Below, in pieces: positions 7,350 to 44,792 of a DNA stretch of 64,000 bases. Positions within the stretch are counted from its first letter, which is position 1; each line of letters opens with the position of its first letter. A model generated the notes under the pieces. The model saw nothing but the letters and a program-made list of their open reading frames with translations, was not told where the DNA came from and did no database searches. Origin of the DNA: a bacterium SCSIO 12696 (GTDB lineage: Bacteria > Pseudomonadota > Gammaproteobacteria > Pseudomonadales > Porticoccaceae); assembly GCA_024397955.1 (NCBI GenBank), contig CP073744.1:682001-746000 (forward strand). The letters are read 5' to 3'. Made by a program: the position numbers and the translations under genes.

Positions 7350-7382
7350 TACAGCGGCTAGATGACTATAAGGAGTAGAACC

Positions 7383-10223: not shown

Positions 10224-10300
10224 GTCATTCTCCTAATTACACTAGAATATACTGCAGTGTTTGCAGGCAAAAATCTTACACAACTATTGCTTCTATATAA

Positions 10301-11335: not shown

Positions 11336-11353
11336 AATTCAAATCCTTCTGTC

Positions 11354-11402: not shown

Positions 11403-11407
11403 GGTGG

Positions 11408-12868: not shown

Positions 12869-12899
12869 TGTTTTGTGTCCCTGTTGTCTCTATTTGTCT

Positions 12900-14252: not shown

Positions 14253-14282
14253 GTGTCCTCTCCTTATCAACAAAGCATTGTT

Positions 14283-14350
14283 TGGCAACATACTAGCAAC
14301 TGCAAGCGCACCACGAAAGAGGTTGCAACCGATTGGGCTTGGGCTACACT
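14283..14350 (+). promoter_or_regulatory. Candidate promoters for the H-NOX gene
   Basis: Two overlapping possibilities. A sigma-54-like TGGCAACATACTAGCA at 14283-14298 has GG-N10-GC spacing but a weak -12 box. A sigma-70-like pair has TTGCAA (14323-14328), a 16-nt spacer and TACACT (14345-14350). Either gives a short leader before the ATG at 14387. Confidence 0.4.
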
Positions 14351-14386
14351 CACTAAAGCCAATAACAAGCGAATAAGGATATCTTT

Positions 14387-14935: not shown

Positions 14936-14995
14936 GGCTTGTTGAGCGCAAAAATTGCTCTCAGCAGTGGTGGATATAAAACGTGAACAAGCCCT
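14934..14995. repeat. 62-bp inverted-repeat element between hnoX and hnoK
   Basis: Perfect 10-bp ends AGGGCTTGTT and AACAAGCCCT flank a 42-bp core. It begins on the last bases of the hnoX stop codon. There is no T-tract, so a MITE-like repeat is more likely than a terminator, though a hairpin here could lower kinase expression relative to the sensor. Confidence 0.65.
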
Positions 14996-15011
14996 ATGGG
15001 AGTAATGATTA

Positions 15012-15941: not shown

Positions 15942-16048
15942 GCAACCAATTATCAGTGTCATCCTGAACGCAGAAAAAATAGCAAAAGGTTGACTCGCAT
16001 CAGCCATTGACGCTTGGAGTTGCACACCGCTTGCGGCGCACAAGCCTC

Positions 16049-16573
16049 TCACTCCATTCCATGTTTAATCTTATAAAGCTCCCACCACTCTACAATATTG
16101 TCCCCTATCAACTCCCACCAGCCATAGAAATAACCAAACATAATGCCAACACCAAGCAAAAACATAAGTGGAGCCAACACAGTAGAAAGTTTGCTTAACG
16201 GGGCCACCTCTAAGTAGGCGAGACTATTTACGTTGGGATGGACTCTGGCATTCACAAACTCTCCCTTGGGATATTTTTTTACAAGGCTTCGCTCATAATT
16301 CAACGATGGAAACAAGTCATATCCTCTAAGAGCTGGCGTATCAGATTTATAATCCTTACCTCGAATCGAGTATTTAAAGTGAATAATACCTTCAAGCATT
16401 ATTTCACCGTTGACACCTGTTTGGTTCAACAATCGAGAATGCGTAATCTCTGCAGCCACAACGGGCCAGAGGTCAAAATATTTTTTTAATCTGAAATAAA
16501 CAAATGTTTGCCAAAGGCCTGCTATAGCCAATAACATCGGAAGCACAAATACAAAAATAATTTTGAAAATCAT
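16049..16573 (-). CDS. DUF3592 membrane protein
   Basis: 174 residues with an N-terminal helix (about 5-26), an extracytoplasmic beta-rich DUF3592 domain (WPVVAAEITHS ... HFKYSIRGKDYKSD ... VNARVHPNVNSLAYLE) and a C-terminal hydrophobic segment (about 128-150). The function of DUF3592 is unknown. The gene is AT-rich beside its neighbours and is transcribed in the same direction as the transporter that ends 18 nt upstream, so they may share a transcript. Confidence 0.7.
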   Translation of the reverse strand: MIFKIIFVFVLPMLLAIAGLWQTFVYFRLKKYFDLWPVVAAEITHSRLLNQTGVNGEIMLEGIIHFKYSIRGKDYKSDTPALRGYDLFPSLNYERSLVKKYPKGEFVNARVHPNVNSLAYLEVAPLSKLSTVLAPLMFLLGVGIMFGYFYGWWELIGDNIVEWWELYKIKHGME

Positions 16574-16591
16574 GCTTTAGCCGGCTGGCAG

Positions 16592-18427: not shown

Positions 18428-18538
18428 AGGTTTTATTCTTTTTGTGGCCGAAAGCACGCATGCTATCACGTCAAAGCGCGGGACTGAACCGCCACCCGCA
18501 CTTCCATCAGGCCGGTATAAAACCCTGGATGTTGTAAC

Positions 18539-19867
18539 CTAGATTTGCTTGACAAATACCTTGGACTTTCTCTGAAAGTTATACATTTTTTGTTTACTTT
18601 CCGGCAACTTATCGATGGCCTGTTCCACATAGCCCTGGTCCAGAAACCAGTGGGCACTGACGGTGGTGAGCACAAAAATAGAGTCTAATTTTTGTACTTT
18701 GGCCTTTTCTTCAAGCTCCGCAATCAGACGTACCCCACGGTTACCGCCCCGGTAGTCCGGGTGGATCACCAGGCAGGCAATTTCCCCGGTATTGGCGTCC
18801 GGGTAAGGGTACAGCGCACCACAGGCGATAATTACGTCTTCTTTTTTAATCACCGTAAAGCGGTCTATTTCCACTTCAAGCAGCTCTCGGGAACGCTTGA
18901 CCAAAGTGCCCTGCTCTTCCAGTGGAGCGATCAAATCAAGGATACCGCCCACATCGTCAATGGTGGCAGAAGTCAGCTGCTCTTTATGATCTTTGGCAAT
19001 CAGGGTGCCGGCACCGTCCCGGGTAAACAGCTCTTGCAACAATGCGCTGTCGCTTTGGTAAGAGACACAGTGGCACCGTTCCACACCGTTTTCGGCGCAG
19101 TTGGCAATGGCCTGCATCAACAGGCGCTCGATGTATTCGGGCTCATTGCCCAGCAACCGTTTCACCGTTCTCAGGCTACAGCTCTTCACCAGGGCGCCGT
19201 TTTCATCCAACAGGCCGTCGTTTTTGGTGAGCGCAATCAGTTTGTCCGCCTTGAGGGAAACCGCAGTTTGAGTGGCGACGTCCTCCAAAGACAGGTTAAA
19301 CACTTCTCCCGTGGTGGAGTAACCCACCGGAGACAACAACACGATAGAGCCGTAATTGAGCTGGGTATTAATGCCTTCGGTATCGATACGCCGCACCAGG
19401 CCGGTGTATTTGTAATCGACGCCGTCGCGAACGCCCATGGGCTTGGCAATCACAAAGTTGCCGGAATTAACCCGCAGTTGCGAACCGTGCATGGGCGAGT
19501 TGGCTAGTCCCATGGTGAGCATGGCTTCGATATGAATACGCAGGGAACCAGTGGCGTCTTTAACCGCAGCCAGGGTGTCGGCATCGGTGACCCGAATGCT
19601 GTTTTCGATATGCTGCTCGATATCAAGCTGTGTCAGCCGCCGACTGATTTGTGTGCGGGCACCGTGCACCAGCACCAGCTTGACGCCGAGGCTTCTCAGC
19701 AATGAGACGTCGTGAATCACATTGGCAAAGTTAGGGTGCTCCACCGCATCGCCATCAAACATCAACACAAAGGTTTTGCCCCGGTGAGCATTGATGTACG
19801 GCGCGGCGTTCCTAAACCACTTTACCTTGTCCTTGTCGCTGTCATTATTTTCTATCGGGTGAGCCAT
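18539..19867 (-). CDS. argA: N-acetylglutamate synthase (classical ArgA)
   Basis: 442 residues: an N-terminal amino-acid-kinase-like domain (KTFVLMFDGDAVEH, VLVHGARTQI) that binds arginine and is not catalytic, then a GNAT domain from about residue 290 (GEIACLVIHPDYRGGNRGVRLI) that acetylates glutamate, the first step of arginine synthesis. Size and domain order match E. coli ArgA. It is the last gene of the minus-strand arg block. Its upstream gap is almost entirely a 268-bp inverted-repeat element, so the start-site context (AGGAAC before the ATG) lies next to that element. A second acetyltransferase domain is fused to ArgH next door, so acetylglutamate synthesis may be redundant. Confidence 0.93.
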   Translation of the reverse strand: MAHPIENNDSDKDKVKWFRNAAPYINAHRGKTFVLMFDGDAVEHPNFANVIHDVSLLRSLGVKLVLVHGARTQISRRLTQLDIEQHIENSIRVTDADTLAAVKDATGSLRIHIEAMLTMGLANSPMHGSQLRVNSGNFVIAKPMGVRDGVDYKYTGLVRRIDTEGINTQLNYGSIVLLSPVGYSTTGEVFNLSLEDVATQTAVSLKADKLIALTKNDGLLDENGALVKSCSLRTVKRLLGNEPEYIERLLMQAIANCAENGVERCHCVSYQSDSALLQELFTRDGAGTLIAKDHKEQLTSATIDDVGGILDLIAPLEEQGTLVKRSRELLEVEIDRFTVIKKEDVIIACGALYPYPDANTGEIACLVIHPDYRGGNRGVRLIAELEEKAKVQKLDSIFVLTTVSAHWFLDQGYVEQAIDKLPESKQKMYNFQRKSKVFVKQI

Positions 19868-28918: not shown

Positions 28919-29370
28919 TTACTGATTTAGAAGCACATCAATCCGACGAAACGTGATATTAATCCGCGCCTCTTCCACCCTATTTTCCTTGGGCACCTGA
29001 TGCTGCCAAAACCGCTGTGTAGCCCCCGTCATTACCAGTAAGGCACCAGACTCAAGAGTTAGCTCGTAACGCTGCCCACCGCTTTTGCGGCGCATCTGAA
29101 AACGTCTTTTTGCTCCCAAGCTTAATGAGGCAATTACCGGGCTTTCACCCAACTCCGCTTCGTCATCGCTGTGCCAGGCGACGCTGTCGCTGCCGTTGCG
29201 ATACAGGTTTATCAGCGCGCTGTTAAAACGTTTGTTTAACTCCCCTTCCACTCGTTGACGCAATTGCATCAACGCCACTGACCAGTCGTTTAAAGGCAGC
29301 CGTGTACCGGAGTAACCGTAATGAGCGTCCCTATCGCCGTACCAGGCATTAAGACGGGGAATTGGCACAG
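28919..29370 (-). pseudogene. 5'-truncated alkB copy
   Basis: The 149 codons match the C-terminal two thirds of the intact alkB at 45646-46293 almost residue for residue, including HSDDEAELG (Fe ligands), the late His in RFWQHQVPKE and RINITFR. Homology stops abruptly at about 29370, after the codons for PIPRL, and nothing resembling the first 66 residues follows. No ATG opens the frame; only a GTG inside the old gene. A hairpin motif (29375-29396) abuts the break. The last residues differ (RRIDVLLNQ), so the 3' end has also drifted. Probably non-functional. Confidence 0.85.
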
Positions 29371-29374
29371 CACG

Positions 29375-29396
29375 AAAGGGCTCTGACCTCTTTAAT
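29375..29396. repeat. AAAGGG...CTTTAAT hairpin motif at the alkB break
   Basis: AAAGGGCTCTGACCTCTTTAAT-type motif, imperfect arms around a CTCTGAC loop. The same motif, with perfect arms, sits at 33746-33770 at the break of the rhs fragment, in the same orientation. Confidence 0.7.
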
Positions 29397-29434
29397 TAAT
29401 TATTCCGGAAATCTGTGCCACTTCCCTTGTCTTG

Positions 29435-29977
29435 TTATTCGTATTTGAGCTCAGAAATTTCGTCATCTTGTAAACAGGACTCCTTAATAACAAGATTTAT
29501 TTCATTAGATTCCAGTTGAACTAGAGGGGCACTATTTGGGGTGATGTATCTTCCTGTTTTTGCTGAAATAACTTTATTTCCATATGGATTTATATGAAAC
29601 CCCTTAACTTTGTATAACCCTAAGGGAAGCTTGTAAGAATCAGCCATATACCTACATGAAAACAGCCTACCAACAAAATCGCTAGGCTTAACGCTAACTA
29701 TTTCATCACCACTTGGTTTAGATATTCTAACTCTAGGAAAAAAATGAAAAAATTTATTATTTTCATCCAGAATTTCAAAGAACATGTCAGCATATGCATC
29801 AGATTTACGAGCATCTGCAAACCTCCTATTAACTAATAGAGGTCGCTCTGAACCGTTAACTAGATAGGTTAAAATCCCATTTTCATCAGATTTAAGCTTA
29901 AATAAAATCATTTCACTTTCAGCGTAAGCTGGCACAGTTAAAGCCAGTAATAGCAAAAACACTTTCACAGTAAACAT
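29435..29977 (-). CDS. Exported protein, immunity candidate for the zincin-like tip
   Basis: About 180 residues from ATG 29977, with signal peptide FTVKVFLLLLALTVPAYA and a beta-rich mature part (FFHFFPRVRISKPSG, GLYKVKGFHINPYGNK). It begins 4 nt after the stop of the rhs fragment that carries the HEIEVH tip, the usual position for a cognate immunity gene. It is AT-rich like the tip. No family recognised. Export to the periplasm would fit an immunity protein against a toxin entering from outside; this role is inferred only from position. Confidence 0.65.
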   Translation of the reverse strand: MFTVKVFLLLLALTVPAYAESEMILFKLKSDENGILTYLVNGSERPLLVNRRFADARKSDAYADMFFEILDENNKFFHFFPRVRISKPSGDEIVSVKPSDFVGRLFSCRYMADSYKLPLGLYKVKGFHINPYGNKVISAKTGRYITPNSAPLVQLESNEINLVIKESCLQDDEISELKYE

Positions 29978-29981
29978 CCTT

Positions 29982-32900
29982 CTAAGGTGTATAATCAGAA
30001 TAATGGCCACGCTTTGCCCTCTCAAAATTTTCTCTATTAAGCGTATTCATGTAATATCTTCTTAAACCTCTTATTTGATTAATTTCAGAAGTGCTTAGAG
30101 AGAATCTTTCAGCGTTTAGCAGATCATAGTTATAAGCCTGAACCTCCAAAAGAGCATTTCCCTGTTCATCTTTCCAGTGAATCCCTCTGTTAACTTGAAG
30201 TCGAACGTGTACTTCGATCTCATGAGATAACACAGAGCCTAGCCAGCCAACGCTCCGTTTAAAAGCGCCATTGCCTATTCGAACTCCGACCGTACCGTCT
30301 GCATGTTCATCTACTATGCCATCACTCGTAAGTTTAGGATCATACGTAACAGAAACAGTACCCTCACTACCAATACCATAGTAATCAAGGGCTTCATTAA
30401 TAGCCAACTGCCTAGTTGCTGGATCCTCCGATTCAAACAAGCTTTTTAGTTTTTTAAATTGTTCTGCTTTCTTTGCACGTTGTTCGCCGCTAAACATCTG
30501 CCCAAACGCGGAAGTAAGGGCACCATTTGCAAATTTACCCCCTGTGGCTTTGGATATTGTTCCACCGACAATCGCTGCAGCTGCTATTCGAATTCCCGCA
30601 AACTCAGGCTTGGTGCCGAAGATTCCATTAATATCGATAGCCTCAGATAGACCAGCACTAACAAATCCATGCCCAAACTTGCCTCCCTGCAATTCCGAGA
30701 AAACGCCACCTGCAATTGCTTGTGCAAATATCCTTTCAGTAGTTTCTAAGCCTGACGCACCAATCTGTGCGAAAGCATAAGATTGTGCAAGGCTGATGGC
30801 TCCCGCTTTTATTCCATCAAATAAGCTACCACCATTTGCATAAGTCACAGCTTCGCTATAGGCCGCTACTGCATACGGCCCCCCATAGTAAGCAATGACA
30901 GCCGTAACAATCGCATTTAGCAGTGGTTTCCTTGATACATATTGCAGCGCAGGCTGGATGACATTTTTTCCAACCCAACTACTTTGAATAAATTTCCTCG
31001 TAATAGCCGCCCCAATTACCTTACTGGCTATAGCTCCTACAAAGTACCTACTAGGGTCTGTGGCATTAAGCGGATTGTTCCACACATAAGCATATCTATT
31101 GAGACTTTGTGTGTACGTCGGCTCCTGAATGTAAGGGTCCGCCTGAAGGAACCTGGCGATCTTCGGATCGTAAATCCGCCCATTCATATGGATCACACCC
31201 ACCTCATCCAGCATCTCATGGCCCGTAAAGCCTCTGGTGGTGATGCTGCTGTCAAAGGTGGTCAATGCCCCATTGGCCAAGGCCGTCCAATCTGTAGCGT
31301 CCCCTCTCTCGCCCCAGGCGTCAAAGCTCATTTCCTGCACAATCGCACCGGTTTCGTCGGTGATCACGTCCAAACTGCCCAGATGATCGTGGTACTGGTA
31401 GTGGGTATCCACGCTTTGCAGTTGATCCGCACTGTTGAGCTTCAGGGTAATCAAGGTACCCCCCAGATGGCGCTTGATTTCTTTATCGCCATTGATCTGG
31501 GTAATCCACTCGGTGTTGCCCACGTACAGGGTGGTTTTGGTGCCACTGCTGTTGGTGTCGGTGCGTTTGTAGCGGGCTCTGTCCGGCCCATACTGGAACC
31601 CGGTGGTGTGACCGCCTTTGCTGATGGTTAAGGGCTTGTCAAAGGTGCTGTAAACGATAGTGCGGCCATCACCACTGAGGTTGTTGCCGTTGTCGTCGTA
31701 GGTGTAGGTAGCGGCTTCCGCTCCCGTAATTTGCGTCACCGCGTGTACACCCGCGTCACCGGACCCACTGTTGTTGCCTGTGCCGTAGCTGTAGTGGCCC
31801 ACATCGCTTTTCTCGGTGATGTTGCCCAGGGCATCGTATTTCACGGTTTTCTCAGCCTGGCCCACAACCCGGTAGCTGGTCAGGCGGTTGAGGTCGTCGT
31901 AGTCAAACACTTCGGTCAGGTTTTTATTGCCGGACTGTTCTCTGCGTTCGAGCAGGTTGCCGATGGTGTCCCACTGGTACTCCAAGTCTTGAACTTTGAC
32001 CCCCAAGGTGTGGTCAGCATCGATGGTTTCGATACGACCGGTTTGTTCGTCGTACACCCGAACAATACTGACGTTGTCACCCCGAGTTTCGCCCGTCACA
32101 TTGCCCCGTGCGTCCATGCTGGTGATTCTGCGGTAGATACTCCGCGGCAAACGTTCACCGTTTTCATCGAAGGTATTGCCTTCAATAGCATCTCCGACCC
32201 AGTCCATATAACCGTATGGGTTGTAATGAGTGCGCGTGCCCTGATAACCAGTAGCGCCTGTGGGGTCGGTAGACGCATCGAAAGTTTGGTGGGTACGGCC
32301 GTATTGGTCGTAGGTCACTGACTCAGTAAAGGTGCCATCCGCACCATTAGCACCCAGTGTGGTTTTGGTGCTCGAGACCCGACCATAGGAGTCATAACGA
32401 ACCGTTTTGACGTAATCCTCATCGTTATTGTCGTCGTTGTCTTGAAGCACAACACCCAATTGACCCAGCCCACCTGGGTTAGCAACTAATTGACCTGTTG
32501 ACTCATCCAAGGTTTGGTCGTAAATCCAGACCGTGTCACTTTCCACGCTGTTATTCGTGCGGCGATCAATCCGATGGATCAGCCGGCCCAACACGTCGTA
32601 GCTCAGTGTGCTGGTCTGACCGTTGGCATCGGTTTGTGATTCCAGTTCGCCGTACACGTTGTAGCTGTAGGTCCAGTCTCCTTTGTCTGGGTCGTCCATG
32701 CTGGTTTTACGGCCCAACAGGTCGTAGACAATGCTGCTCACGTTACCCGCCGAGTCGGTCATGGTGGTCATGTTGCCCTGGGCGTCGTAGGCGTAGCTGA
32801 CCGAGGAGGTGTCATGGCCGCTGCCCCCTTCGTTGTCGGTCACACCCACCACTTCGCCCAACGCGTTTTTGGTTTCCACCTTGCGGTGGCCTTTGTCGTT

Positions 32901-33746
32901 GATGGTGACGGTGCTGTAGCCGTTGTATTGCACGCTACCGGTGCTGTTGTCCGGCAGTGTGGTGGTGGTCGGACGGCCCAGGATGTCGTAGTCGATGGTG
33001 GTCCAGTAGATGGGAGAACCACTGTCCAGGTAGTAGGGTTCGCTCTGGCGTTTGGTGCGACCCGGGGTGTCGAACTCCACGTCGCTGGCGATCCAGTTGC
33101 CACTAAAACCCACACTCAAGCTACGAATCGCACGACCCAGTTTGTCAAAACACTGCTGGCTCTGCCCACCCCCGGCGCTGTGGCTGATGGCTTTGTAGAC
33201 CGTGCCTGTCGGACAGTGGCTGGTGTCCGCGTCCGTCAGGTAGGTTTTACTAAAGCCACCGGTCTCGCCGCGTTCAAAGTATTTGCGGCCCAACGGGCTG
33301 TAAGCGCTGTTTACCGTCAGGCCATTGATGTCTTTGGCTTCGGTCACTTGGCCATAGACGTTGCGGCTTTCCACCGAACTGATTTGCTGACCCAGGCTGT
33401 TGAAGCTGCGTTCCACATAGCGCCCAAGAGGGTCGTACACACTGCGGCTGTAACGATCGGTTACCCCCGCCCCTCTGGTGGTGGCTTTGAGCTTGTTGCC
33501 GTGTTCATCGTAGTCATAGGTGGTAGTCAGCCGGTAGGTGACGTTGTCTGGTTCGATAACCTCCGTGGCCAGCAAGCCACGTTTGTCACCGCTGGTGATG
33601 TAGGTGAACGCACTGGTGCGGGTTTCGGTGTCAGAGACACTGCCGCTGCGGGTGCTCACCACCTGTGTGCGACTGAGGCGGCCCATTTCCGCATCCCATA
33701 CGCTGGTGCCGTAGGTGTTGGTGTTGGTGGTGGTTTTGACAAACCA
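29982..33746 (-). pseudogene. 5'-truncated rhs/YD-repeat gene with zincin-like tip
   Basis: An open frame equivalent to only the C-terminal half of the giant rhs gene. YD repeats and the Rhs core (LNRYAYVWNNPLNATDPS) match 35795-38427 nearly base for base, then the tip diverges. The frame begins at a TAA at 33747 with no signal peptide or start site; ATG 33686 is merely the first ATG. The tip, about 390 residues, has glycine-rich hydrophobic segments and then SVLSHEIEVHVRLQV with a downstream LLEVQAYNYDL, resembling a zincin-type metal site (HExxxH rather than the standard HExxH). The canonical DPSG has become DPSR. It may be a silent cassette that recombines with the large gene. Confidence 0.8.
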
Positions 33747-33770
33747 TTAAAGGGCTCTGACCCCTTTAAT
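33746..33770. repeat. Perfect hairpin motif at the rhs break
   Basis: ATTAAAGGG (33746-33754), loop CTCTGAC and CCCTTTAAT (33762-33770): 9-bp arms, 7-nt loop. It abuts the point where the rhs fragment loses homology with the full gene. Similar GGGGTCAGAGCCC sequences are, from memory, common beside REP-associated transposase genes; none is present here. Confidence 0.75.
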
Positions 33771-33945
33771 GTGCTAACCTCCTTTGGATAGTTAGAAAAG
33801 CATTCCCTTTTGGAAGAATTTGAGCATTGTTATTTCCTGGTTGCTACAGGGAGAAAATTAGCAGGGCTTCGCTAGAAAATAAATCTGCCCCCTTTTCACG
33901 ATGACTGACGAGGCGTTGGATGGGATTCTTTGACTACAAATACGT

Positions 33946-34110
33946 TTAATTGAGACCCGTCCCTGATTGTTCCATTTGCAATTGATTGCGACGAATGCCT
34001 AGCTCCATAGCTATCTCAGCTGGCGGCCGTCCCGTTTCCTCCATCAATCGAACGGCCTCCAGCTTAAAGTCGCGGGTATAGGTCTTATATGGCTTTCTTT
34101 TTGATGTCAT
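33946..34110 (-). pseudogene. IS3-family transposase orfA remnant
   Basis: 54 codons starting TSKRKPYKTYTRDFKLEAVR and running through the helix-turn-helix (GRPPAEIAMELGIRRNQL) before leaving the family pattern and hitting a stop. No orfB. Just upstream, 34133-34166 (GCTGATTTTAAGTATCCGTT and following) looks like an IS3-type terminal repeat. Marks a decayed insertion between the two rhs copies. Confidence 0.75.
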
Positions 34111-34175
34111 GTGGATACTCCTGTGGCGACAGTGTCGCTGATTTTAAGTATCCGTTAAACTGGGGGAGCTTCATT

Positions 34176-34228
34176 ACGTCCCCTATTATTGCCACGTCCC
34201 CTATTATTTTCTATTCGTGTCCCTTATT
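34176..34228. repeat. Short tandem repeats beside the IS3 remnant
   Basis: ACGTCCCCTATTATT occurs at 34176-34190 and 34194-34208, with a degenerate third copy (GTGTCCCTTATT) at 34217-34228 that overlaps the end of the lipoprotein gene. Debris-like. Confidence 0.6.
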
Positions 34229-34730
34229 GCTCTAATTGTCTCAACCAATTACCATTTTTATACTTGTAGACAGACTCAAGTGAAGTATGCTGCTCCCCAC
34301 TAATATTACTGCTTTCCAACAGCTGCTTTCTTTGTCTCTGTTCTTCACCGCTAAACTGTACATAATGAACAGATTCGATACTATCTAGATCTTTAGGAGC
34401 AGAAAGGCTTTTAACAGCCATATGTTCATCGACCCAACATATGATAGCAGGTCTATCGAAAATTATTTTTGGATCGATTTTTTTTTCAGCAGACCCAAAA
34501 CTTACATACACATAATTTGAAAATGAATCACGAACTATCCGAACCCGGTGAAAATCTTTATGGATCTGATTCATAGATACATCCCATACACTAGCACGTT
34601 CAAATTCTAAGCGCTTAGTGCAAATGTTAATGATTTTTAAGTCACCTTTTTCAAAGGAGTCAAGCCCCTTATAACTACAACCATTCATAGAAAAAACAAA
34701 CACTAACATTGTTATAAAGTATCTCATCAT
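34224..34730 (-). CDS. Lipoprotein, immunity candidate for the DUF4329 tip
   Basis: 168 residues with a lipoprotein signal (MRYFITMLVFVFSMNGC), so the mature protein should be acylated at Cys and face the periplasm. The rest is mixed and polar, ending KYKNGNWLRQLEQ; no family recognised. Its ATG overlaps the stop of the rhs tip (ATGA), the coupled arrangement expected of a cognate immunity gene, and it is equally AT-rich. A periplasmic lipoprotein would fit a toxin domain acting in or crossing the periplasm. Confidence 0.7.
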   Translation of the reverse strand: MMRYFITMLVFVFSMNGCSYKGLDSFEKGDLKIINICTKRLEFERASVWDVSMNQIHKDFHRVRIVRDSFSNYVYVSFGSAEKKIDPKIIFDRPAIICWVDEHMAVKSLSAPKDLDSIESVHYVQFSGEEQRQRKQLLESSNISGEQHTSLESVYKYKNGNWLRQLEQ

Positions 34731-36190
34731 TTCACCAATTTTCCGCTCACTCCAAAATGGGACATTCTTCTGTGAGGATCAAAGTCTTGGTGACAATTAT
34801 TATAGCCACCTTTACAAACTCTTATCTCAGTTAAAGATCTATGACTATGTGACATATATAAAGGTATTCCATTCCTCGTCGACCATTCAATATCAGCCGA
34901 CTGCCCTACAGTATGTTTATTAGAAAAAAACTGACTGTTAAAACCACCGCCAGGGTGAGTATGATAGCCAGCAGCGATTCCCCTCGGATCAATAGAAGCA
35001 CTCGTGCCATTGATACCCACTTCTGGTCTGTTATATGAATAACCGTCACCGTTTTCTCTAATCCCTCCGGCTATCTCAATATCATATTTATCGGATATAG
35101 GTTGTATCTCTGTTAATACTTCCTTTGCAGCATCATCCATAGCAGTCTTTCCGGTAAATACTTTATCTTTATCTAAAGTTCCATTCGTGAGTAGAGCATC
35201 AACTTCTTTCTGTGCTTTTTCTCTTCTTTGTTTTAGAGTTAGTTTCGAATTTGTTGGTGCCGGCCCAGATTGTTTTAATCGCTTGTTTATAGAGTCTGAT
35301 AACTCGGCTACAATTGCCGCAAATGCTCCACTAACAGCACCATTACTAAACTTACCTCCTGTTAACCTTGATATTGTTCCGCCAATCACAGATTTAGTTA
35401 TTATTCGCCCCAAGCCTGTGGACACAGCCTTAGTTCCTTTAAGCAAAGTGCCTGCTATAGCTCCAACACCAGCCGAGATAAACCCATGGCCAAACTTACC
35501 GCCTTGAAGCACATTGGCAATACCACCTATCGCACCGTAGGTTAGCACCCCGGTCACCGATATCGGATCTATCCCTAAATTTGCCGGTATTAAGGCTCCC
35601 GTTATAGCCCCCGTGAGCGCGCCTTTAAGGATATTTCCTCCGTTAACAGCAGCACTAATTGCACCTGTTATAGCACCTAACCCAACAGCACCCCAGCCTG
35701 CTAATAGCGCACTTGCCGCTCCTCCGGTCGCGATAACCAGTATGGCACCAACAATCAGCCCGGCAAATTTCTTGAAGAAGTAACCCGACGGATCAGTAGC
35801 ATTCAGTGGGTTGTTAATGACATACGCATACCGGTTAAGACTTTGCGTCATCAGCGGATCTTGTATAAACGGATCGGCCTGAAGGAACCTGGCAATCTTC
35901 GGATCGTAAATCCGCCCATTCATATGGATCACACCCACCTCATCCAGCATCTCATGGCCCGTAAAGCCTCTGGTGGTGATGCTGCTGTCAAAGGTGGTCA
36001 ATGCCCCATTGGCCAACGCCGTCCAATCTGTAGCGCCCCTTCTCTCGCCCCAGGCGTCAAAGCTCATTTCCTGCACAATCGCACCGGTTTCGTCGGTGAT
36101 GACGTCCAGGCTGCCCAGATGATCATGGTACTGGTAGTGGGTGTCCACGCTTTGCAGTTGATCCGCACTGTTGAGCTTCAGGGTAATCAA
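34727..36190 (-). CDS. rhs 3' segment: core end and DUF4329 (JAB-like) tip
   Basis: Third piece of the giant rhs gene, out of frame with the preceding piece. It carries the end of the Rhs core (QSLNRYAYVINNPLNATDPSGYF), then a glycine/alanine-rich hydrophobic pre-toxin region (about 140-270) and a C-terminal domain from about residue 320 with the DUF4329 pattern: AAKEVL..., GYHTHPGG and a following SADIEW. The HxHP is the metal-binding motif of JAB/MPN peptidases, so a peptidase-type toxin is plausible. Compared with the intact frame of the second copy, one G is missing in the run at 36193-36199, so this piece cannot be translated with the rest as the sequence stands. Confidence 0.78.
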   Translation of the reverse strand: MITLKLNSADQLQSVDTHYQYHDHLGSLDVITDETGAIVQEMSFDAWGERRGATDWTALANGALTTFDSSITTRGFTGHEMLDEVGVIHMNGRIYDPKIARFLQADPFIQDPLMTQSLNRYAYVINNPLNATDPSGYFFKKFAGLIVGAILVIATGGAASALLAGWGAVGLGAITGAISAAVNGGNILKGALTGAITGALIPANLGIDPISVTGVLTYGAIGGIANVLQGGKFGHGFISAGVGAIAGTLLKGTKAVSTGLGRIITKSVIGGTISRLTGGKFSNGAVSGAFAAIVAELSDSINKRLKQSGPAPTNSKLTLKQRREKAQKEVDALLTNGTLDKDKVFTGKTAMDDAAKEVLTEIQPISDKYDIEIAGGIRENGDGYSYNRPEVGINGTSASIDPRGIAAGYHTHPGGGFNSQFFSNKHTVGQSADIEWSTRNGIPLYMSHSHRSLTEIRVCKGGYNNCHQDFDPHRRMSHFGVSGKLVK

Positions 36191-37516
36191 AGCCCCCCCA
36201 GATGGCGTTTGATTTCTTTATCGCCATTGACCTGGGTAATCCACTCGGTGTTGCCCACGTACAGGGTGGTTTTGGTGCCACTACTGTTGGTGTCGGTGCG
36301 TTTGTAGCGGGCTCTGTCCGGCCCATACTGGAACCCGGTGGTGTGACCGCCTTTGCTGATGGTTAAGGGCTTGTCAAAGGTGCTGTAGGTGATGTTGCGG
36401 CCATCCCCACTGGTATTGTTGCCGTTGTCGTCGTAGCTGTAGGTGGCCGCTTCCGCTCCCGTAATTTGGGTCACCGCGTGTACGCCCGCGTCCCCGGCTC
36501 CGCTATTATTGCCCGTACCGTAGCTGTAGGTACCCACATCACTCTTGTAGAGGATGTTGCCCAGGGCGTCGTATTGCACGGTTTTGGCCGCTTGGCCTAC
36601 CACCTGGTAGCTGGTCAGGCGGTTGAGGTCGTCGTAGCCAAAGTTTTCTCGCAGGTTTTTGTTACCGGATTTTTCTTCTCGCCATTCCAGGTTACCAATG
36701 GTGTCCCACTCGTACTCAAGGTCCTGGACTTCGGCCCCCAAGGCGTGAGTGGCATCAATGGTTTCGATGCGCCCGGTTTGTGGGTCGTACACCCGAGCGA
36801 TACTGACGTTGTCGCCCCGGGTTTCACCCGTCACGTTACCCCGTGCGTCCATGCTGGTGATGGTGCGGTAGATACTCCGCGGTTGACCATTGCTGCCCAG
36901 CACTGCATCGCCCACCCAGTCCATGTAGCCGTAGGCGTTGTAATGGCTTTGAGTGCCCTGGTAACCGGTAGCCCCAGTGGGGTCGGTAGACGCATCGAAG
37001 GTTTGGTAAGTACGGCCGTATTGGTCGTAGGTCACTTGTTCGATGTAGCTGCCGTCGCTGCCGCCAGCCCCCAGTGCCGTGGCGGTGTGGGTCACCCGCC
37101 CGTAGGTGTCGTAGGTAACGGTTTTGACGTAGTCGTTAGTGCCGTCATCGCCGTTGTCTTGTTGAACGTTGTTCAGCAAGCCAAGGCCCAGCCCACTGGT
37201 GCCGTTGTTGTAGTGCCACTGGGTGTCGCTTTCCACACTGTTGTTGGTGCGGCGATCAATCCGATGGATCAGTCGGCCCAACACGTCGTAGCTCAGTGTG
37301 CTGGTCTGACCGTTGGCATCGGTTTGTGATTCCAGTTCGCCGTACACGTTGTAGCTGTAGGTCCAGTAGCCCTTGTCCGGATCATCCATCCAGTCTTTGC
37401 GGCCCAACAGGTCGTAGTGAATGGTGCTCACGTTGCCCGCCGAGTCGGTCATGGTGGTCATGTTGCCCTGGGCGTCGTAGGCGTAGCTGACCGAGGAGGT
37501 TTCATGACCACTGCCC
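36187..37516 (-). pseudogene. rhs middle segment between two frameshifts
   Basis: YD-repeat stretch (NMTTMTDSAGNVSTIHYDLLGR, SYNVYGELESQTDANGQ and many more) continuous with the upstream and downstream rhs pieces only if two one-base losses are restored. At 37514-37517 there are four C (plus strand) where the second rhs copy has five (32824-32828). At 36193-36199 there are seven C followed by G-A where the second copy has six followed by A-T-G and an extra base; the net effect is one base missing. No start signal of its own. Confidence 0.8.
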
Positions 37517-40500
37517 CTTCGTTGTCGGTCACACCCACCACTTCGCCCAACGCGTTTTTGGTTTCCACCTTGCGGTGGCCTTTGTCGTTGATGGTGACGG
37601 TGCTGTAGCCGTTGTATTGCACGCTACCGGTGCTGTTGTCCGGCAGTGTGGTGGTGGTCGGACGGCCCAGGATGTCGTAGTCGATGGTGGTCCAGTAGAT
37701 GGGAGAACCACTGTCCAGGTAGTAGGGTTCGCTCTGGCGTTTGGTGCGACCCAGGGTGTCGAACTCCACGTCGCTGGCAATCCAGTTGCCACTAAAACCC
37801 ACGCTCAGGCTACGAATCGCACGACCCAGTTTGTCAAAGCATTGCTGGCTCTGCCCACCCCCGGCGCTGTGGCTGATGGCTTTGTAGACCGTGCCTGTCG
37901 GACAGTGGCTGGTGTCCGCGTCCGTCAGGTAGGTTTTACTAAAGCCACCGGTCTCGCCGCGTTCAAAGTATTTGCGGCCCAACGGGCTGTAAGCGCTGAC
38001 CACGTCCAGACCATTGAGGTCTCTGGCCTGGGTAACTTGACCGTAGCCGTTGCGGGTAACCACTTCGCTGGTTTTTTGTTCCAGGCTGTTGAAGCTGCGC
38101 TCGACATAGCGGCCCAAGGCGTCGTATTCGCTGCGGCTGTAGCGAGAGGTAACCCCTGCCCCACTGGTGGTAGCACGCAGTTTGTTGCCAAAGTTGTCGT
38201 ACTGGTACGTTGTGGTCAACCGGTAGGCAACATTGTCTGGCTCAATAACTTCCGTGGCCAGCAGGCCGCGTTTGTCACCGCTGGTGATGTAGGTAAAGGC
38301 ACTGGTGCGGGTCTCGGTGTCGGCGACACTGCCGCTGCGGGTGCTCACCACCTGGGTGCGACTAAGGCGACCCATCTCCCGCTCCCAAGTACTGGTGCCG
38401 TAGGTGTTGGTGGTGGTTTTGACAAACTGGTCGCTGCCGGTTTCATCGTCGGTGGTGACGGTAATGGTCAGCGGGTTGCCGTAACTGTCATAGAGGTTGT
38501 CGGTGGTCACCGTTTGCAGATGAGCGCCTTGGGCACTGCCATTACTCGCCAGGTCGTAGGTTTTTTCGATGCTGCGGGCCAGGTACGGCGCGTAGAGTTT
38601 GGTGTCCGGCATACTGGTGCCGTTCCAGTCCACATGCCTGGGGTCGCTGAGGTTTTCATCCCAGTGTTTGAGCTTCCAGATGTTCTCGGACATGCTCAGT
38701 ACATGACCATCATCGGTGGTGACGATGGTTTGCAGCGGCGAACCAATAAACGGGAAGTCTTGCCGGTAGGTGGTGGTGGTCATCACCCCGGTTTGGTTGT
38801 CCACGGTTCTCAGGCGCTGGAAGCCCAAAAAGCCTCGACCCATGGCCTGTACTTTGGCTTCGCCGTAGTAGTAGCTGATGGAGCTGGTGGCGTTGTTGTC
38901 CACAGTACCAGGGTTGGCATCATCGGCCGCCGGTGCGGAGCTAGCGACATCGGTCACTATGTACATGGGGCCGTTTAGCTCCAGTACCGGATCTCGCTGC
39001 CCGTCGTCGTTAACGTCTTTGCCCAGAGTGTGGGCACTGGATTGCACGTCCCAACCGCCGTTGAGCATGCTGTAAAAGTCGCCCACATTGGCAGTGCTGT
39101 AGGTGTAGTGGCACTCGTCCGGATCAAACTCTTCCTCGTCTTCGTCGTAGGGGTTGTCTGGGAAGCACGGACCGTCGTAGGTGTGGACGGTGCTACCAAC
39201 GTTAACACGCTGATAGTGGCCGCTGGTGGCCAGGGTGCCGTAAGTGATATTAGTTTCCGCACCCAAACCATTGGTCACACCGGTGATGCGGTTGGTGGGC
39301 ACGTTTTGTTGCGTGGAGAGATAAACTTTTGAGGTATTAGCGCCACCGTACTCCGTATCGAACTGCACCACATCCGGAATGCCATCAGCATTGACGTCCA
39401 TAAATTGGAAACGGTGTTTTTTCTGGTCCTCGTCGCTGCCACTGATGTATTTGATATTAGCCGCAGGATCAAAACCATCACCGTTCCAATAACGAACTTT
39501 CAGGTAGTTCGCTTCGTAGTCAAACCAAACGATGTCTTGGTAACCATCGCGGTTGTAGTCCACCACCTGGATTTGCTGAGCGTTATTGTTGTTGAGACTT
39601 TCCTGATAACTGGTTTCCGTATCATTTTCTGCAGGGTACGGAACCACGACCTCGACACTCATGAACTCAGAGCCATTGCCTTTGCTCAACCTCACCAGTC
39701 GACTGCCAGTTAAAATATCAGCAGCACCATCCCCGTTAAAATCGTAGTAATCTCTTGAGTTTGGCGAGGATACCGTGGTCGTGGCTAGTGCTTCAGTTTT
39801 TATGGTGTTGGTGCTGCTGTCATAACCCCGATTCAGCCATACATGTCTGTAGCTGATTTCGTTACATTCAACCTCAACCTCTTCATCGTTAATGTCAGTT
39901 TCGGTGCACCAATTGTGTCCATAAACCCTGCCGATAAAGTCGACTCGACCATCACCGTCAAAATCACTCGGCGAACCTAAAATCTCGTGTGGATCCCAGT
40001 GATCTCGCGGCGCATACCAGTACGCCTGACCGGAGGCATTCCGCGGGTAATCAATCGTAATCGCCGCCCCAAAACGGTAAAAGCGGTTGGAGGTCACAGG
40101 CTCGCTGGGGTCAGGCTCCATCAAATACACCTGGTCACCCTGAACAATATCCACCAAACCATCGCTATTAACATCCAAGAGCGTCAGGTCTTTTTCCGCT
40201 GGAATACCCGTACCACTGGTAAAACCTGTAGTGGACAACAGCCAGCCGCCATTGCCCTGCGGGGTAGATAGGTGAACACGCCACACGTCCGCTTTGCCCG
40301 GCTGGTGATAATTGTTGTCCCACAGCAACACGTCCATGCGGCCATCGGCGTTGTAGTCGATTACTTCGATCTTGTACGCTTCATTAACCCCACCACCAAA
40401 TTCAAAATCTTCGTAGGCCTTGATCCGTGAACCCAGCCCACCGGTGTTATTGGCCAACGCGTAATACAGCGCATGACGGTCAATATTGCCGTGGTTGTTG

Positions 40501-43500
40501 GTGCTCGCCTCCAGCCACACCAGGTCCATGCGGCCATCACCGTTAATGTCCGCCGGGCGGTAGTCCAAAATAAAGTCATCACCACTTTGCGTAGGACTGA
40601 TGTTGGTAGTGCTGGTGGGATTTGCCGCTATCCCCACACTGGGCAGTGCCCAGTCAAAGGTAGTGGCCGGCAAACAACGACTGTCCACACACTCTTCAAT
40701 GCTGGTGAGACGGCTGAGATCATCCGTAGCCGGCTGACTTTGACTGGTGCCGTTGTTGCTCTGATCCAGATACTTCAGGTGGTAGGTGCGCAGCGCCGTT
40801 TCACCACTGCCACCGGTGTTGTAACTGGTCACACTGGTCAGTCGCTGGCCGGTACTAAATTCGTACCCCGCCACATAGCCACGGGTCACATCGTTTCGGG
40901 AACCGTAGGTAAAACGAACCCGCGCGTTAGACCCACTGGGGCCACCGGCACTGCCATAGGCGTACTTCACCTCCTCGATGCGATGACCATCGGCGTCGTT
41001 GTGGTAATCGAACCAGATAGGATTGCCCACACTGTCCTGGAACTTTTTCAGGGCCCAGGTCAGGGTTTGACCCGCTGTGTTGTTTTGCTTGGCATCGGTA
41101 AAGTTGCCCGTCGGCACGTCTCCATAGAACGAGGTAGAGCCGTCCTTACGATGCACTTCCCAGTAATCCGGGTGACCGGTGCTACCGCCACGCGCGTAGA
41201 TCTGGGCAAAGCTGTCGATCTCCGTGCGGTATTCGGAGTCCGGCGCTCCATAGGTACCCGACACCAAAATCAGGCGCTGGCCATCCAACGCAAAGCGGTC
41301 CTCCGGCCCCCAGGTGATGGGCATGGGGTCGCCATCCTGTTGGAGAGTTTGGCGCGAACGACTGATGCCACTCAAACCGCCAATGTTCCAGCCCAGACCC
41401 GCCAGGCCATTGCCGCCCTGGCTGGAATAGTTAAGGGACAGCTGAGGGGCCACACCCGCGGTACCCGCCGCCGTGGCAATGGGAATGCTGTAGGTGGCAC
41501 TGCCGGATTCGTCCACCCGGAAGCTGCCCGCAATCGTGCCCACACTGTCGGTTTCGATCACTTCGCCTGCATTCACACTGGGTGCGGGTTCTACATGAGC
41601 GGTTGGCGCCGCTGGCGGTGGTGTGTGAGGTGCCACAGCAACACTGTGCACCGCGGTGTAACCGCCGCCACCAGAGCTGTTGAACGCCCTGACTCGATAG
41701 TCGTAAGTGCCTTCAGTGAGTGTGCCGGCCGTATACGTACGATCTGAACCGGAGTCAACCACACCCCAGCTGCCACCGTCCTTGCGCTGTTCCAGGCTGT
41801 AATAACCCACACTGCCCGCAGCACTGCCCCAGGTCAAGGTAATGCCCGAACCATAGCTTTGAGCTGGGCCACTGATGGCACCCGGAGTGCCCGGAACATG
41901 GATAACCGCCACCGTATCCGTGGCACTCCAGCCACTGCTGCCACTGCCGTTATTGGCGCGAACCCGATAGCTGTAGTTGCCATCCCCTTTGCCGGTGACG
42001 GCGTAACTGGTGCTGGCAGTGGTGGTGACGTCGGCCCAACTGCCACCATTGATTTGTTCTTGCAGCAAGTAGTCTACGGTGGTGCCGTTGCCCGCCGTCC
42101 AGGTTACCGTGTAACTGCCGGTACCATTGGTGGTCGGCACACTGGTGCTACCAGGGGTTCCCGGTGGCAACAGAACGGTCACCGCCGCTGCGGTACGCCA
42201 CCCGGAACACTGGGTATTGCTGCCAACGGTGTGACACGCCCTGACCCGGTATTCATAAGTGCCGTCGCTTTGACCACTGTACGCTTTACTGCGGGCACTG
42301 GTGTCTTGCTCATTGGTCCAGCTACCACCGTTAACACGACGATCCATATCGTATGTGGTCAGTGTGCCGCTGGCCGTTCCCCAGTTCACCGTATGGTTGC
42401 CATCAGGACTGGTGGAAGGGCTGGCACTGATGCTGGAAGGCACACCCGGTGCAATGGCCACATGGGTGGTCACCGCACTGCTGTACACACTACAACCACT
42501 GACGTTACAAGCCTGTACCCGGAACTGGTAACTGCCGTTGCCCAAACCCGATACCGCTTTGCTGGTGGCGCCGCTTGTATGGATGTTGCTCCAGGCGCCA
42601 CTGCCCAAACGTTGTTGCAAGGTATAGCTGTTGGCGCCGCCGGAGGCGTTCCAGTTCACCGTAAAGCTGCCATCGTTATCCGTCGCCGGCGCACTCAGAC
42701 CTGAGGGCGTGCCTGGAGTCGCCACAGAACCGGCATTAGTGGTAGTGCGGTAACCGGAACACCCCTGATAACTACCCTGAGTGTTACAGGCCCTGACACG
42801 ATAGTGGTAACTGCCGGTCATTAAGTTGTTGATCGCCCGACTGGTGGCACCGCCGGAGTACACTTCCAACCACCCACCACCGTCTTTTTGCTGTTCCAGG
42901 CGATACATGGCAACGGTACCCGTTGATGCACCCCAACTAACGGTGTGAGTACTGTTGGTCGTGTGTTGTGGCGAGATACTGATCGAAGGTGAAACACTCG
43001 GCGCAATGGCCACATCGGTACTGTCTACACCACTGTATCCCGAACAGCCCACCGCACTACAGGCTCGTACCCGATAACCGTACGTGGCCGTACCCAGACC
43101 AGATTCGGATCTGCTGGTGCCGCTGGCATTGTGGATGGTACTCCAGCTGCCACCGTTGGTTTGCCGTTGCAATTCGTAGCTGGTAGCACCGGTGGTGGTG
43201 CTCCAACTCACGCTGTAGGCGCCATCCGGATCACCGGAAGGCGCATTGGGAGTTCCCGGTGTCGCTGGGGTGGTGACGGCAAAAGTATTGCCATAGCGCC
43301 AACCCGAACAGCTGGTATAGCTGCCAGTGGTACGGCAGGCTCTGACTGCGTAACGGTAGTTACCTACTACCAACCCCGTATCTGTGCGACTAAGAGCAGA
43401 ACCATCGTACTCTCCTACCCAACTACCACTATTAAATTGCTTGTTCAGATCGTAGTAGCTCACAGAGCCACTGGCCGCGCCCCAGCTGAGGGACACGGTA

Positions 43501-44771
43501 CCACTGTAATTGGTGCCCGGTGTGGTAATGGAGCTGGGTACTCCAGGGGTGATCGCCACCTGGGTGGTGTCCACCGGGCTGTAAGCGGAACAACCCACGG
43601 CGCTACAAGCGCGCACCCGATAGCCGTATACCGCATTGCCCAAACCGGATTCGGAACGACTGGTAGCACTGCTGGTTTGGATGGTGCTCCAGCTGCCGCC
43701 ATTGGCTTGCCGCTGCAGCTGATAGGAGGTAGCGCCGGTCGAACCAGACCAACTGACGGAGTATGCGCCGTTGTTGTCGTTGGTGGGCGCGTTGGGTTGA
43801 CTCACCGCAGACGGAACCGTCACCGTGGCGTTGGACGAGTAACGCCAAGCTGAGCAATTGGTGTAACTGCCGGTGGTGCGGCAAGCGCGAATGGCGTATT
43901 GGTGGGTACCGGTGCTCAACCCGCTAAACGTGCGATTGCGAGAAGTGCCGTCGTAAGCGTTGCTCCAACTGCCACCATTAAAACGTTTGTCCACGTCGTA
44001 CTTGGTGACAGAACCTGACGCCGCCCCCCAAGTCAACGAGTGACTGCCGGTGTAGCTGGTACTGGGGCTGATGCTGGCGGTGCCCGGTACCCCGGGGGCG
44101 ATGGCCACCTGGGTGCTGTCCACACCGCTGTAACCGGAACAACTGCCAGCACTGTTACAGGCACGAACGCGGTATTCCCACACACCATTGCCCAGACCAG
44201 ACTCGGAACGACTGGTGGTACTGCTATTGTGGATGGTGCTCCAGCTGCCACCAGACAGGCGGCGTTGCAGTTGATAGGTGGATGCGTGGGCAGTCGAGGA
44301 CCAGCTGACCGTGTAGGCACCATTGCCATCACTGGTGGGCGCGTTTAAACCGGCAGGTGTTGCAGGTGTAGGATTGTGTACAGTGACGGTAATTGAGCCA
44401 ACTGTATACGTATAATCAATCTCTTCCTCGTATTCGTCACCAGTGTTCTCATCTTCGTATGTCTCAATCTGAGTAACTGTGACTTTCACCAAGTAGGTGT
44501 AGGTGCCAACTGGCTTGTTGGAAAAACTTTTGCTGCGACTGGTCGCATGGCCTGCGATGTAATCAATGGATGTGCCGTTTTCGTACACGCGGTAACCAAC
44601 AATGGTGTCCGCACCGTACGTCCAGTTGAGTGTAAACGACCCTGTACTGGGATTTGGCGTGGCACTGATGCCCGCAAACACTTGAGCACCAAACACGGAC
44701 AGGCTCAACAGCAACAACGCCTTCGCTGCAACACCCGTAAACAGAGAAACCACCCTACCCAAAGTACCCAT
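37458..44771 (-). CDS. Giant secreted FN3-SpvB-FG-GAP-TcdB-Rhs protein (5' part)
   Basis: About 2437 residues in one frame. Order: a Sec signal peptide (LLLLSLSVFGAQVFA); 11 FN3-like domains of about 90 residues to residue 1060, alternating between two subtypes; an SpvB domain from about 1080 (SGSATYSIPIATAAGTAGV, LSLNYSSQGGNGLAGLGW); seven or so FG-GAP/VCBS calcium loops (DINGDGRMDLVW, DFDGDGRVDF) over 1400-1820; a TcdB-middle-like region (TNGLGAETNITYGT); then YD repeats. This is a TcB/SpvB-type shell protein with an adhesive N-terminal stalk. ATG 44771 is preferred over 44792 because GGGAAGG precedes it. The frame ends in a stop after a one-base deletion at 37514-37517, cutting off the core end and toxin tip. 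Confidence 0.85.
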   Translation of the reverse strand: MGTLGRVVSLFTGVAAKALLLLSLSVFGAQVFAGISATPNPSTGSFTLNWTYGADTIVGYRVYENGTSIDYIAGHATSRSKSFSNKPVGTYTYLVKVTVTQIETYEDENTGDEYEEEIDYTYTVGSITVTVHNPTPATPAGLNAPTSDGNGAYTVSWSSTAHASTYQLQRRLSGGSWSTIHNSSTTSRSESGLGNGVWEYRVRACNSAGSCSGYSGVDSTQVAIAPGVPGTASISPSTSYTGSHSLTWGAASGSVTKYDVDKRFNGGSWSNAYDGTSRNRTFSGLSTGTHQYAIRACRTTGSYTNCSAWRYSSNATVTVPSAVSQPNAPTNDNNGAYSVSWSGSTGATSYQLQRQANGGSWSTIQTSSATSRSESGLGNAVYGYRVRACSAVGCSAYSPVDTTQVAITPGVPSSITTPGTNYSGTVSLSWGAASGSVSYYDLNKQFNSGSWVGEYDGSALSRTDTGLVVGNYRYAVRACRTTGSYTSCSGWRYGNTFAVTTPATPGTPNAPSGDPDGAYSVSWSTTTGATSYELQRQTNGGSWSTIHNASGTSRSESGLGTATYGYRVRACSAVGCSGYSGVDSTDVAIAPSVSPSISISPQHTTNSTHTVSWGASTGTVAMYRLEQQKDGGGWLEVYSGGATSRAINNLMTGSYHYRVRACNTQGSYQGCSGYRTTTNAGSVATPGTPSGLSAPATDNDGSFTVNWNASGGANSYTLQQRLGSGAWSNIHTSGATSKAVSGLGNGSYQFRVQACNVSGCSVYSSAVTTHVAIAPGVPSSISASPSTSPDGNHTVNWGTASGTLTTYDMDRRVNGGSWTNEQDTSARSKAYSGQSDGTYEYRVRACHTVGSNTQCSGWRTAAAVTVLLPPGTPGSTSVPTTNGTGSYTVTWTAGNGTTVDYLLQEQINGGSWADVTTTASTSYAVTGKGDGNYSYRVRANNGSGSSGWSATDTVAVIHVPGTPGAISGPAQSYGSGITLTWGSAAGSVGYYSLEQRKDGGSWGVVDSGSDRTYTAGTLTEGTYDYRVRAFNSSGGGGYTAVHSVAVAPHTPPPAAPTAHVEPAPSVNAGEVIETDSVGTIAGSFRVDESGSATYSIPIATAAGTAGVAPQLSLNYSSQGGNGLAGLGWNIGGLSGISRSRQTLQQDGDPMPITWGPEDRFALDGQRLILVSGTYGAPDSEYRTEIDSFAQIYARGGSTGHPDYWEVHRKDGSTSFYGDVPTGNFTDAKQNNTAGQTLTWALKKFQDSVGNPIWFDYHNDADGHRIEEVKYAYGSAGGPSGSNARVRFTYGSRNDVTRGYVAGYEFSTGQRLTSVTSYNTGGSGETALRTYHLKYLDQSNNGTSQSQPATDDLSRLTSIEECVDSRCLPATTFDWALPSVGIAANPTSTTNISPTQSGDDFILDYRPADINGDGRMDLVWLEASTNNHGNIDRHALYYALANNTGGLGSRIKAYEDFEFGGGVNEAYKIEVIDYNADGRMDVLLWDNNYHQPGKADVWRVHLSTPQGNGGWLLSTTGFTSGTGIPAEKDLTLLDVNSDGLVDIVQGDQVYLMEPDPSEPVTSNRFYRFGAAITIDYPRNASGQAYWYAPRDHWDPHEILGSPSDFDGDGRVDFIGRVYGHNWCTETDINDEEVEVECNEISYRHVWLNRGYDSSTNTIKTEALATTTVSSPNSRDYYDFNGDGAADILTGSRLVRLSKGNGSEFMSVEVVVPYPAENDTETSYQESLNNNNAQQIQVVDYNRDGYQDIVWFDYEANYLKVRYWNGDGFDPAANIKYISGSDEDQKKHRFQFMDVNADGIPDVVQFDTEYGGANTSKVYLSTQQNVPTNRITGVTNGLGAETNITYGTLATSGHYQRVNVGSTVHTYDGPCFPDNPYDEDEEEFDPDECHYTYSTANVGDFYSMLNGGWDVQSSAHTLGKDVNDDGQRDPVLELNGPMYIVTDVASSAPAADDANPGTVDNNATSSISYYYGEAKVQAMGRGFLGFQRLRTVDNQTGVMTTTTYRQDFPFIGSPLQTIVTTDDGHVLSMSENIWKLKHWDENLSDPRHVDWNGTSMPDTKLYAPYLARSIEKTYDLASNGSAQGAHLQTVTTDNLYDSYGNPLTITVTTDDETGSDQFVKTTTNTYGTSTWEREMGRLSRTQVVSTRSGSVADTETRTSAFTYITSGDKRGLLATEVIEPDNVAYRLTTTYQYDNFGNKLRATTSGAGVTSRYSRSEYDALGRYVERSFNSLEQKTSEVVTRNGYGQVTQARDLNGLDVVSAYSPLGRKYFERGETGGFSKTYLTDADTSHCPTGTVYKAISHSAGGGQSQQCFDKLGRAIRSLSVGFSGNWIASDVEFDTLGRTKRQSEPYYLDSGSPIYWTTIDYDILGRPTTTTLPDNSTGSVQYNGYSTVTINDKGHRKVETKNALGEVVGVTDNEGAVVMKPPRSATPTTPRAT

Positions 44772-44792
44772 AACAACCTTCCCCATGGTCAT

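Follow-up and report, generated by a model that had tools for sequence, protein, structure and literature searches.

Repetitive extragenic palindromic (REP) sequences were reportedly described as rearrangement junctions by Shyamala in 1990. Terminal repeats that share the motif GGGGWSAS, many of them arranged as dimers, belong to the RAYT-like transposases named TIRYT (Di Nocera et al. 2013, available part of PMC3733652), and in starving Escherichia coli 22 of 90 sequenced novel junctions were located at REP sequences, for which the authors favoured hairpin-driven template switching (available part of PMC3161906). Here we analyse a 64,000-nucleotide stretch, the window, which covers positions 682,001 to 746,000 of contig CP073744.1 (G000:C1:682001-746000) in the single-contig 2.93-Mb genome of bacterium SCSIO 12696 (Porticoccaceae; GCA_024397955.1). 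In this window a 5'-truncated rhs gene with its own tip (rhs') and a 5'-truncated AlkB-like gene (alkB') each begin at one of two copies of a short repeat, REP1 and REP2. We consider that these joints are probably scars of recombination or template switching between short repeats in a decaying array of rhs tips, which links a little-studied repeat family to the breaking and re-forming of rhs toxin arrays.

The window contains two copies of the sequence AAAGGGCTCTGAC, at 29375 and at 33749; they share one orientation (direct, not inverted) and are 4.4 kb apart. Only 0.01 copies are expected, and none of 100 dinucleotide shuffles contained two. The genome carries at least two more long rhs genes like that of the window (L115 and L116), plus a more distant one (L166). 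In local alignments with three intact rhs genes (window, L115 and L116) the homology of rhs' begins each time at 33744, 0 bp from REP1, while the homology of alkB' to the intact alkB of the window begins at 29370, four bases (29371-29374) before REP2, two of which, as judged by eye, also match the intact gene. This confirms the first-pass annotation of this DNA, which had placed the motif at the homology ends of both truncated genes, in the same orientation. The "identical hairpin" described there overstates the similarity, because REP2 has a mismatch in the stem and folds no better than shuffles (z −0.77). As single-stranded DNA REP1 forms a strong hairpin, far more stable than those of shuffled sequences (z −6.3 for one strand and −5.7 for the other), and it is oriented with its GGGG side towards an IS3-type relic and its CCCTTTAATG side adjoining rhs'. 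A scan of the genome with a 19-base form, at up to three mismatches, gave one further weak match (112945, three mismatches), which was treated as chance, and the reversed control also gave one. The copies of this repeat type (type C) in the genome are three, two in the window and one half copy that an IS3-type insertion sequence (IS) interrupts behind the rhs gene of L115. Plasmid records searched with the REP1 joint yielded 31 records with weak matches (best E 0.07), mostly to the rhs side of the query among the matches listed.

The motif is a terminal repeat (REP, or terminal inverted repeat, TIR) of the RAYT-like TIRYT group of Y1 transposases. The form GGGGTCAG (type C, in REP1) matches GGGGWSAS, as does GGGGACAG of type B, and REP2 carries GAGGTCAG, with one mismatch to this consensus. 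The 21-base form, with at most one mismatch, is present in 7 of 193 relatives (the window genome included), and its reversed-pattern control in 0 of the 193 genomes. A scan of genome collections found the motif in 49 stretches, by title mostly gammaproteobacterial metagenome-assembled genomes and in three cases Marinomonas isolates, and in none (0) of the viral contigs scanned. With a profile built from 13 open reading frames (ORFs) of relatives, a Y1/RAYT ORF was detected within 150 bp of 14 of the 80 exact copies of the motif, in 12 of the 58 loci, some of which overlap, a count that leaves out L049, where the Y1 frame overlaps the motif, as well as L014 and L012. All 14 lie on the CCCTTTAA (inner) side of the motif, and 0 on the other. 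Copies are found on both flanks of a Y1 (PF01797-type) gene in L052, L027 and contig C84 of G069, and 6 of the 58 loci contain 10 inverted REPIN-like pairs, with 7-58 bp between the 21-base cores and one copy counted in two pairs. A classical GTAG REP is ruled out, since this tetranucleotide is missing around 33745-33771 and 29375-29395.

The REP-associated Y1 transposase that the first-pass annotation proposed to look for was not found in the window genome (0 PF01797 matches at E ≤ 0.001, three candidates scored). The window copies therefore look like orphans, and an active mobile element in this genome was rejected on the same ground. Within the genus, Y1 genes stand beside two repeat types in the sister species G002, the same-genus genome used for comparison: type A at L118 6669-7451 (G002:C12:330668-331450), where type-A repeats (AATAGGGGACGTA) surround the gene in inverted orientation, and type B at L117 14292-15055.

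The sister species holds eight type-B copies (at most one mismatch), on three contigs with rhs pieces (C16, C30 and C7). Type-B matches with two or three mismatches (three in G001 and two in G002) were treated as chance, as were four (L004, L006, L007 and L009) of the six exact GGGGTCAGAG matches, that of L006 sharing 13 bases inside a 168-aa frame. On C7 (L119) one rhs fragment, from 10276, begins 4 bp after a type-B REPIN, and another, from 12850, begins 3 bp after a type-B repeat. On C30 (L162) the 3' end of an rhs fragment, at 12052, lies directly at two partial copies that precede a full repeat at 12020. We counted ten gene ends in the rhs loci of the two species. Eight are orphan rhs 5' ends, and the others are that of alkB' and the 3' end of the fragment in L162; left out of the orphan 5' ends were contig-end cuts (L162 13784, L163 and L164), sequences judged to be parts of main genes (L119 16745 and 18443; L166; L167 35 and 2174) and L118 3741, a match with 23% identity. 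For four of the ten a full repeat is no more than 4 bp away, a fifth adjoins partial copies, and three of the eight orphan rhs 5' ends have a repeat. Random placement of gene ends against repeats gave a mean of 0.02 and a maximum of 2 (200,000 trials), a figure that is only a guide because the loci were chosen for rhs and repeats. The position of the motif at the breaks is not due to chance. A chance match as the origin of the motif itself is ruled out by the shuffle counts, the reversed-pattern control and the random placement.

The closeness of these joints also bears on the possibility that the repeats were inserted into pre-existing joints or dead gene ends, rhs arrays being tolerant of insertion. 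The presence at rhs loci of type-B copies with at most one mismatch (one in the window genome and eight in G002) and of the three type-C copies of the window genome fits such a permissive region, but insertion would need to have landed within 4 bp four times, and the Marinomonas pair described below is better explained by exchange. We regard this origin as unlikely.

In the other loci, few of the 73 copies (56 loci) touch an evidently truncated gene, as judged by eye. A copy is touched by 54 open frames of at least 60 aa, and only those of L011, L041 and L042 appear cut there (by eye, without a database check for each frame). In L011 and L041 a piece of an ABC-F-like ATPase touches the repeat, in L042 an IS3-orfA-like frame is cut on its 3' side, and in L122 two IS3 left-end pieces (86 and 95 bp) stop at repeats. 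The cut pieces lie on either side of the repeat, and 3'-truncated pieces of rhs (L162), of the IS3-orfA-like gene (L042) and of IS3 left ends (L122) also adjoin repeats. The first-pass annotation had viewed the motif as a recombination or transposition end that captures 3' gene parts. This view is partly supported: the motif does belong to a Y1-associated repeat family, and its position at breaks is not due to chance, but the carrying of 3' gene parts is unsupported: most copies are not followed by 5'-truncated genes, 3'-truncated pieces are found at repeats as well, most orphan rhs 5' ends have no repeat, and no Y1 match was found in the window genome. By itself, a repeat at the end of a gene is no capture device.

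Two Marinomonas loci, which serve as the main control here, form a natural pair of alleles. L198 (G175) and L041 (Marinomonas aquiplantarum) are 98% identical on both sides of the repeat region; in L198, at 8425-10069, two direct repeats enclose 1.6 kb of DNA that contains a complete 443-aa ORF, and L041 has a single repeat at 4303, with the left arm of the left L198 copy (GGGG, not GGGT) and the right flank of the right copy. The pair is consistent with alleles that would differ by an exchange between two repeats, for which a deletion in L041 is the simpler, though not proven, direction; for the window no second allele was found.

The window joints probably arose in a similar manner, from repeats that would have lain inside rhs' and alkB' beforehand. 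A transposase, no longer detectable in the genome, would once have scattered repeat copies within and between the genes of the rhs array. Two repeats would then have exchanged through recombination over short homology, or through template switching at the hairpins, with loss of the intervening DNA, and one repeat would have stayed as the joint between the two flanks. Where the right-hand repeat lay inside a gene, as proposed for rhs' and alkB, the 5' part of this gene would be lost at the repeat.

Several observations weigh against this explanation. Five of the eight orphan rhs 5' ends are without a repeat (L117 5569 and 12599; L162 12176; L165 6821; L167 6632), which indicates that other processes break rhs genes too. 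The repeats are just 21-27 bp, short for RecA, and the hybrid nature of the L041 repeat rests on one base difference between the copies. An earlier allele of the window locus was not found, with one genome per species. The link between motif and Y1 genes is weak at the level of whole genomes: PF01797 matches occur in 5 of the 7 genomes with the motif and in 89 of 193 overall. In addition, REP2 is surrounded by a 14-nt inverted repeat (13/14; 29357-29370/29413-29426) with one arm inside alkB', of which 2 of 1500 shuffles have a counterpart, and which is not accounted for by repeat exchange.

The same joints could be produced by one-ended strand transfer by a TIRYT/RAYT transposase, with a cut at the inner (CCCTTTAA) edge of the repeat and joining to an arbitrary downstream site; the intervening DNA would be deleted, and 5'-truncated genes would follow the repeat without a second repeat. 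This agrees with the joints within 0-4 bp and with the location of rhs' and alkB' on the inner side, which in other genomes is the side of the Y1 gene (14 of 14), and TnpA-REP enzymes process single-stranded REPs (available part of PMC8266576). However, the window genome lacks a Y1 match, the joints of L162, L042 and L122 are on 3'-truncated pieces, the joined sites have no common base pattern (by eye), and such a reaction was not found in the available parts of the literature examined. We consider it rather unlikely.

Since REP1 and REP2 are direct and delimit exactly the block of rhs', tip and probable immunity gene, this 4.37-kb block could also have entered as a circle, by repeat-by-repeat integration of a toxin-tip cassette. 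That such blocks can be gained or lost is seen from the Marinomonas pair, and circular intermediates have been proposed for rhs tips (available part of PMC2935791), but no strain without the block and no circle were seen, and the joint between the right repeat and part of alkB would be needless for a clean cassette. This origin is very unlikely in our view.

An integrase element found at the rhs core end in the sister species and in two other families (G114 and G126) is a far better candidate for a tip cassette than the REP motif. L190 and L191 share the order of an rhs gene with core end and tip, a small ORF, a helix-turn-helix (HTH) regulator, a CHC2/toprim primase-like protein (~1000 aa) and a tyrosine integrase (352-354 aa), followed by a short second rhs core end with the same tip; the whole then recurs, with a third core end and a different tip after it. 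This unit measures 8,747 bp in L190 and 6,273 bp in L191, and the first two core ends agree exactly over 8,740 bases (from 19 bp before the counted base) and 6,272 bases (from 18 bp), respectively. The main rhs gene is fused to the tip of the element and another tip is displaced behind it, the arrangement that integration into the end of the rhs core should give. In L117 of the sister species there are two 5.6-kb copies of the element (XRE, primase-like and integrase genes; positions 1-5600 are exactly identical to 7031-12630), each followed by a short core end, with differing tips; the main rhs gene is not seen because the contig begins at the first copy. Window positions 30652-31184, which cover the core end and the beginning of the rhs' tip, are 74% identical to L117 12602-13134, behind the second of these copies.

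In Caballeronia (L197) core ends lie behind two integrase genes, and in Janthinobacterium (L196) the element lies behind a gene with an rhs-type core end. The Lonsdalea populi plasmid record NZ_CP072857.1 (L195), 11,289 bp and circular, consists mostly of two such tip units, with two primase regions, one XerC-like integrase, two nuclease ORFs, an NTF2-fold immunity gene and an HTH regulator, and may be a circular form of the element that happened to be sequenced. The element brings along its own tip and an immunity-like ORF, in tandem units, and looks to be a mobile element dedicated to tip swapping; no description of it was found in the literature searched, including the available parts of PMC2935791 and PMC13183296.

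The integrase element was not found in the window genome, which gave only weak best matches (primase E 1.3e-24, integrase 36% identity). Matches of this strength would be expected of housekeeping proteins, presumably DnaG and XerC/D. As a cause of the window breaks the element was rejected on these weak matches and because rhs' is cut at core position 997, and the site of the element is near 1832. The first-pass annotation had suggested that the motif could build cassettes for toxin tips; the Marinomonas pair fits plain repeat exchange, and in relatives the integrase element is the better candidate. Such an element would supply a dedicated enzyme for the proposed tip displacement and open it to direct tests, with joints of site-specific displacement predicted at TATAACTATTA (the L190 core-end site). 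We find it improbable that a TIRYT-type Y1 transposase, before its loss or in trans, joins its terminal-repeat end to new 3' gene pieces and shuffles rhs core-tip-immunity blocks, in which case the block 29375-33771 would act as a mobile unit with a toxin tip, alongside the tip units that the integrase element carries in the sister species.

In repeats of all three types, the GGGG half can be followed immediately by an IS3-type left end (TGAAGCTCCCCC, TGAACCTCCCCC, TGAGCCACCCCC or a close variant), as seen at window 34173, L115 8150, L122 7614, L051 1436, L058 4386, L118 7996 and L119 9028; the family name derives from the orfA/orfB frames of L115, by eye. This suggests that the IS targets these repeats, and IS insertion into REPs is already known (available part of PMC1525189). 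No target duplication was seen at the one complete IS3-type copy examined (L115). IS3 was rejected as the cause of the window breaks, as its left end adjoins repeats but rhs' and alkB' do not touch it.

The features are collected in Table 1. On the minus strand the window has, in this order, an intact alkB (~46.3-45.7 kb), the upstream rhs gene with its tip, a small ORF, the IS3-type relic, the type-B repeat, REP1, rhs' with its own tip, a second small ORF, REP2 and alkB'. The segment 33876-33971 is 77% like L117 6972-7053 of the sister species. In the assembly the window copy of the upstream rhs gene is spread over three frames; its L115 homologue is one long frame.

Table 1 Coordinates of repeats, genes and integrase elements (window positions unless a locus is named)
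Feature	Location	Strand	Details
REP1, TIR/REP-type palindrome, type C	33745..33771	−	CATTAAAGGGctctgacCCCTTTAATG, 10-bp arms
REP2, second copy, same orientation, beside alkB'	29375..29395	−	one stem mismatch
rhs', 5'-truncated rhs with own tip	29982..33744	−	core begins at position 997 of the 1880-residue core query; ORF 29982-33686
ORF behind rhs' tip, probable immunity gene by position only	29435..30025	−	no Pfam or NCBIfam match
alkB', 5'-truncated AlkB-like gene	28919..29370	−	PF13532 match begins at profile position 49; 95% like the intact alkB along 433 bp
Type-B repeat	33876..33896	−	AAAAGGGGGCAGATTTATTTT; sole match in the window genome at ≤3 mismatches
IS3-type left-end relic	33970..34173	−	begins TGAAGCTCCCCC directly after GGGGACGTAA
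Two tandem type-A repeats	34175..34205	−	AATAGGGGACGTA and ...GTG
ORF behind upstream rhs tip, probable immunity gene by position only	34224..34730	−	
Upstream rhs gene	34727..44792	−	three open frames: 37458-44792, 36187-37461, 34727-36190
Integrase element, L190 (G114:C4:186000-205999)	1035-19672		
Integrase element, L191 (G126:C55:12000-26479)	1007-14134		
Integrase element, L117 (G002:C16)	1-14267		

The repeats of the window resemble the TIRtrons and TIRYT transposases (available part of PMC3733652) in the fit to GGGGWSAS, in the inverted copies beside Y1 transposase genes and in the dimers. They differ in that the window genome has no Y1 match and the copies are at gene breaks in an rhs array. 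With REPINs and RAYTs (Bertels and Rainey 2011) they share the inverted pairs, the hairpins and a RAYT close by in other genomes, whereas here the GTAG tag is missing and the window genome has three type-C copies. Joints at palindromic repeats are also common to the REP rearrangement junctions (available parts of PMC3161906 and PMC11708052), which concern REPs of E. coli and P. fluorescens, in contrast to the TIR-type repeats in rhs arrays observed here. Finally, the orphan fragments that combine a tip with a core part of varied length, found downstream of an rhs gene, agree with Rhs C-terminal displacement (Jackson 2009, available part of PMC2935791), for which the proposed model is homologous recombination with circles, whereas here some of the fragment ends lie at short repeats.

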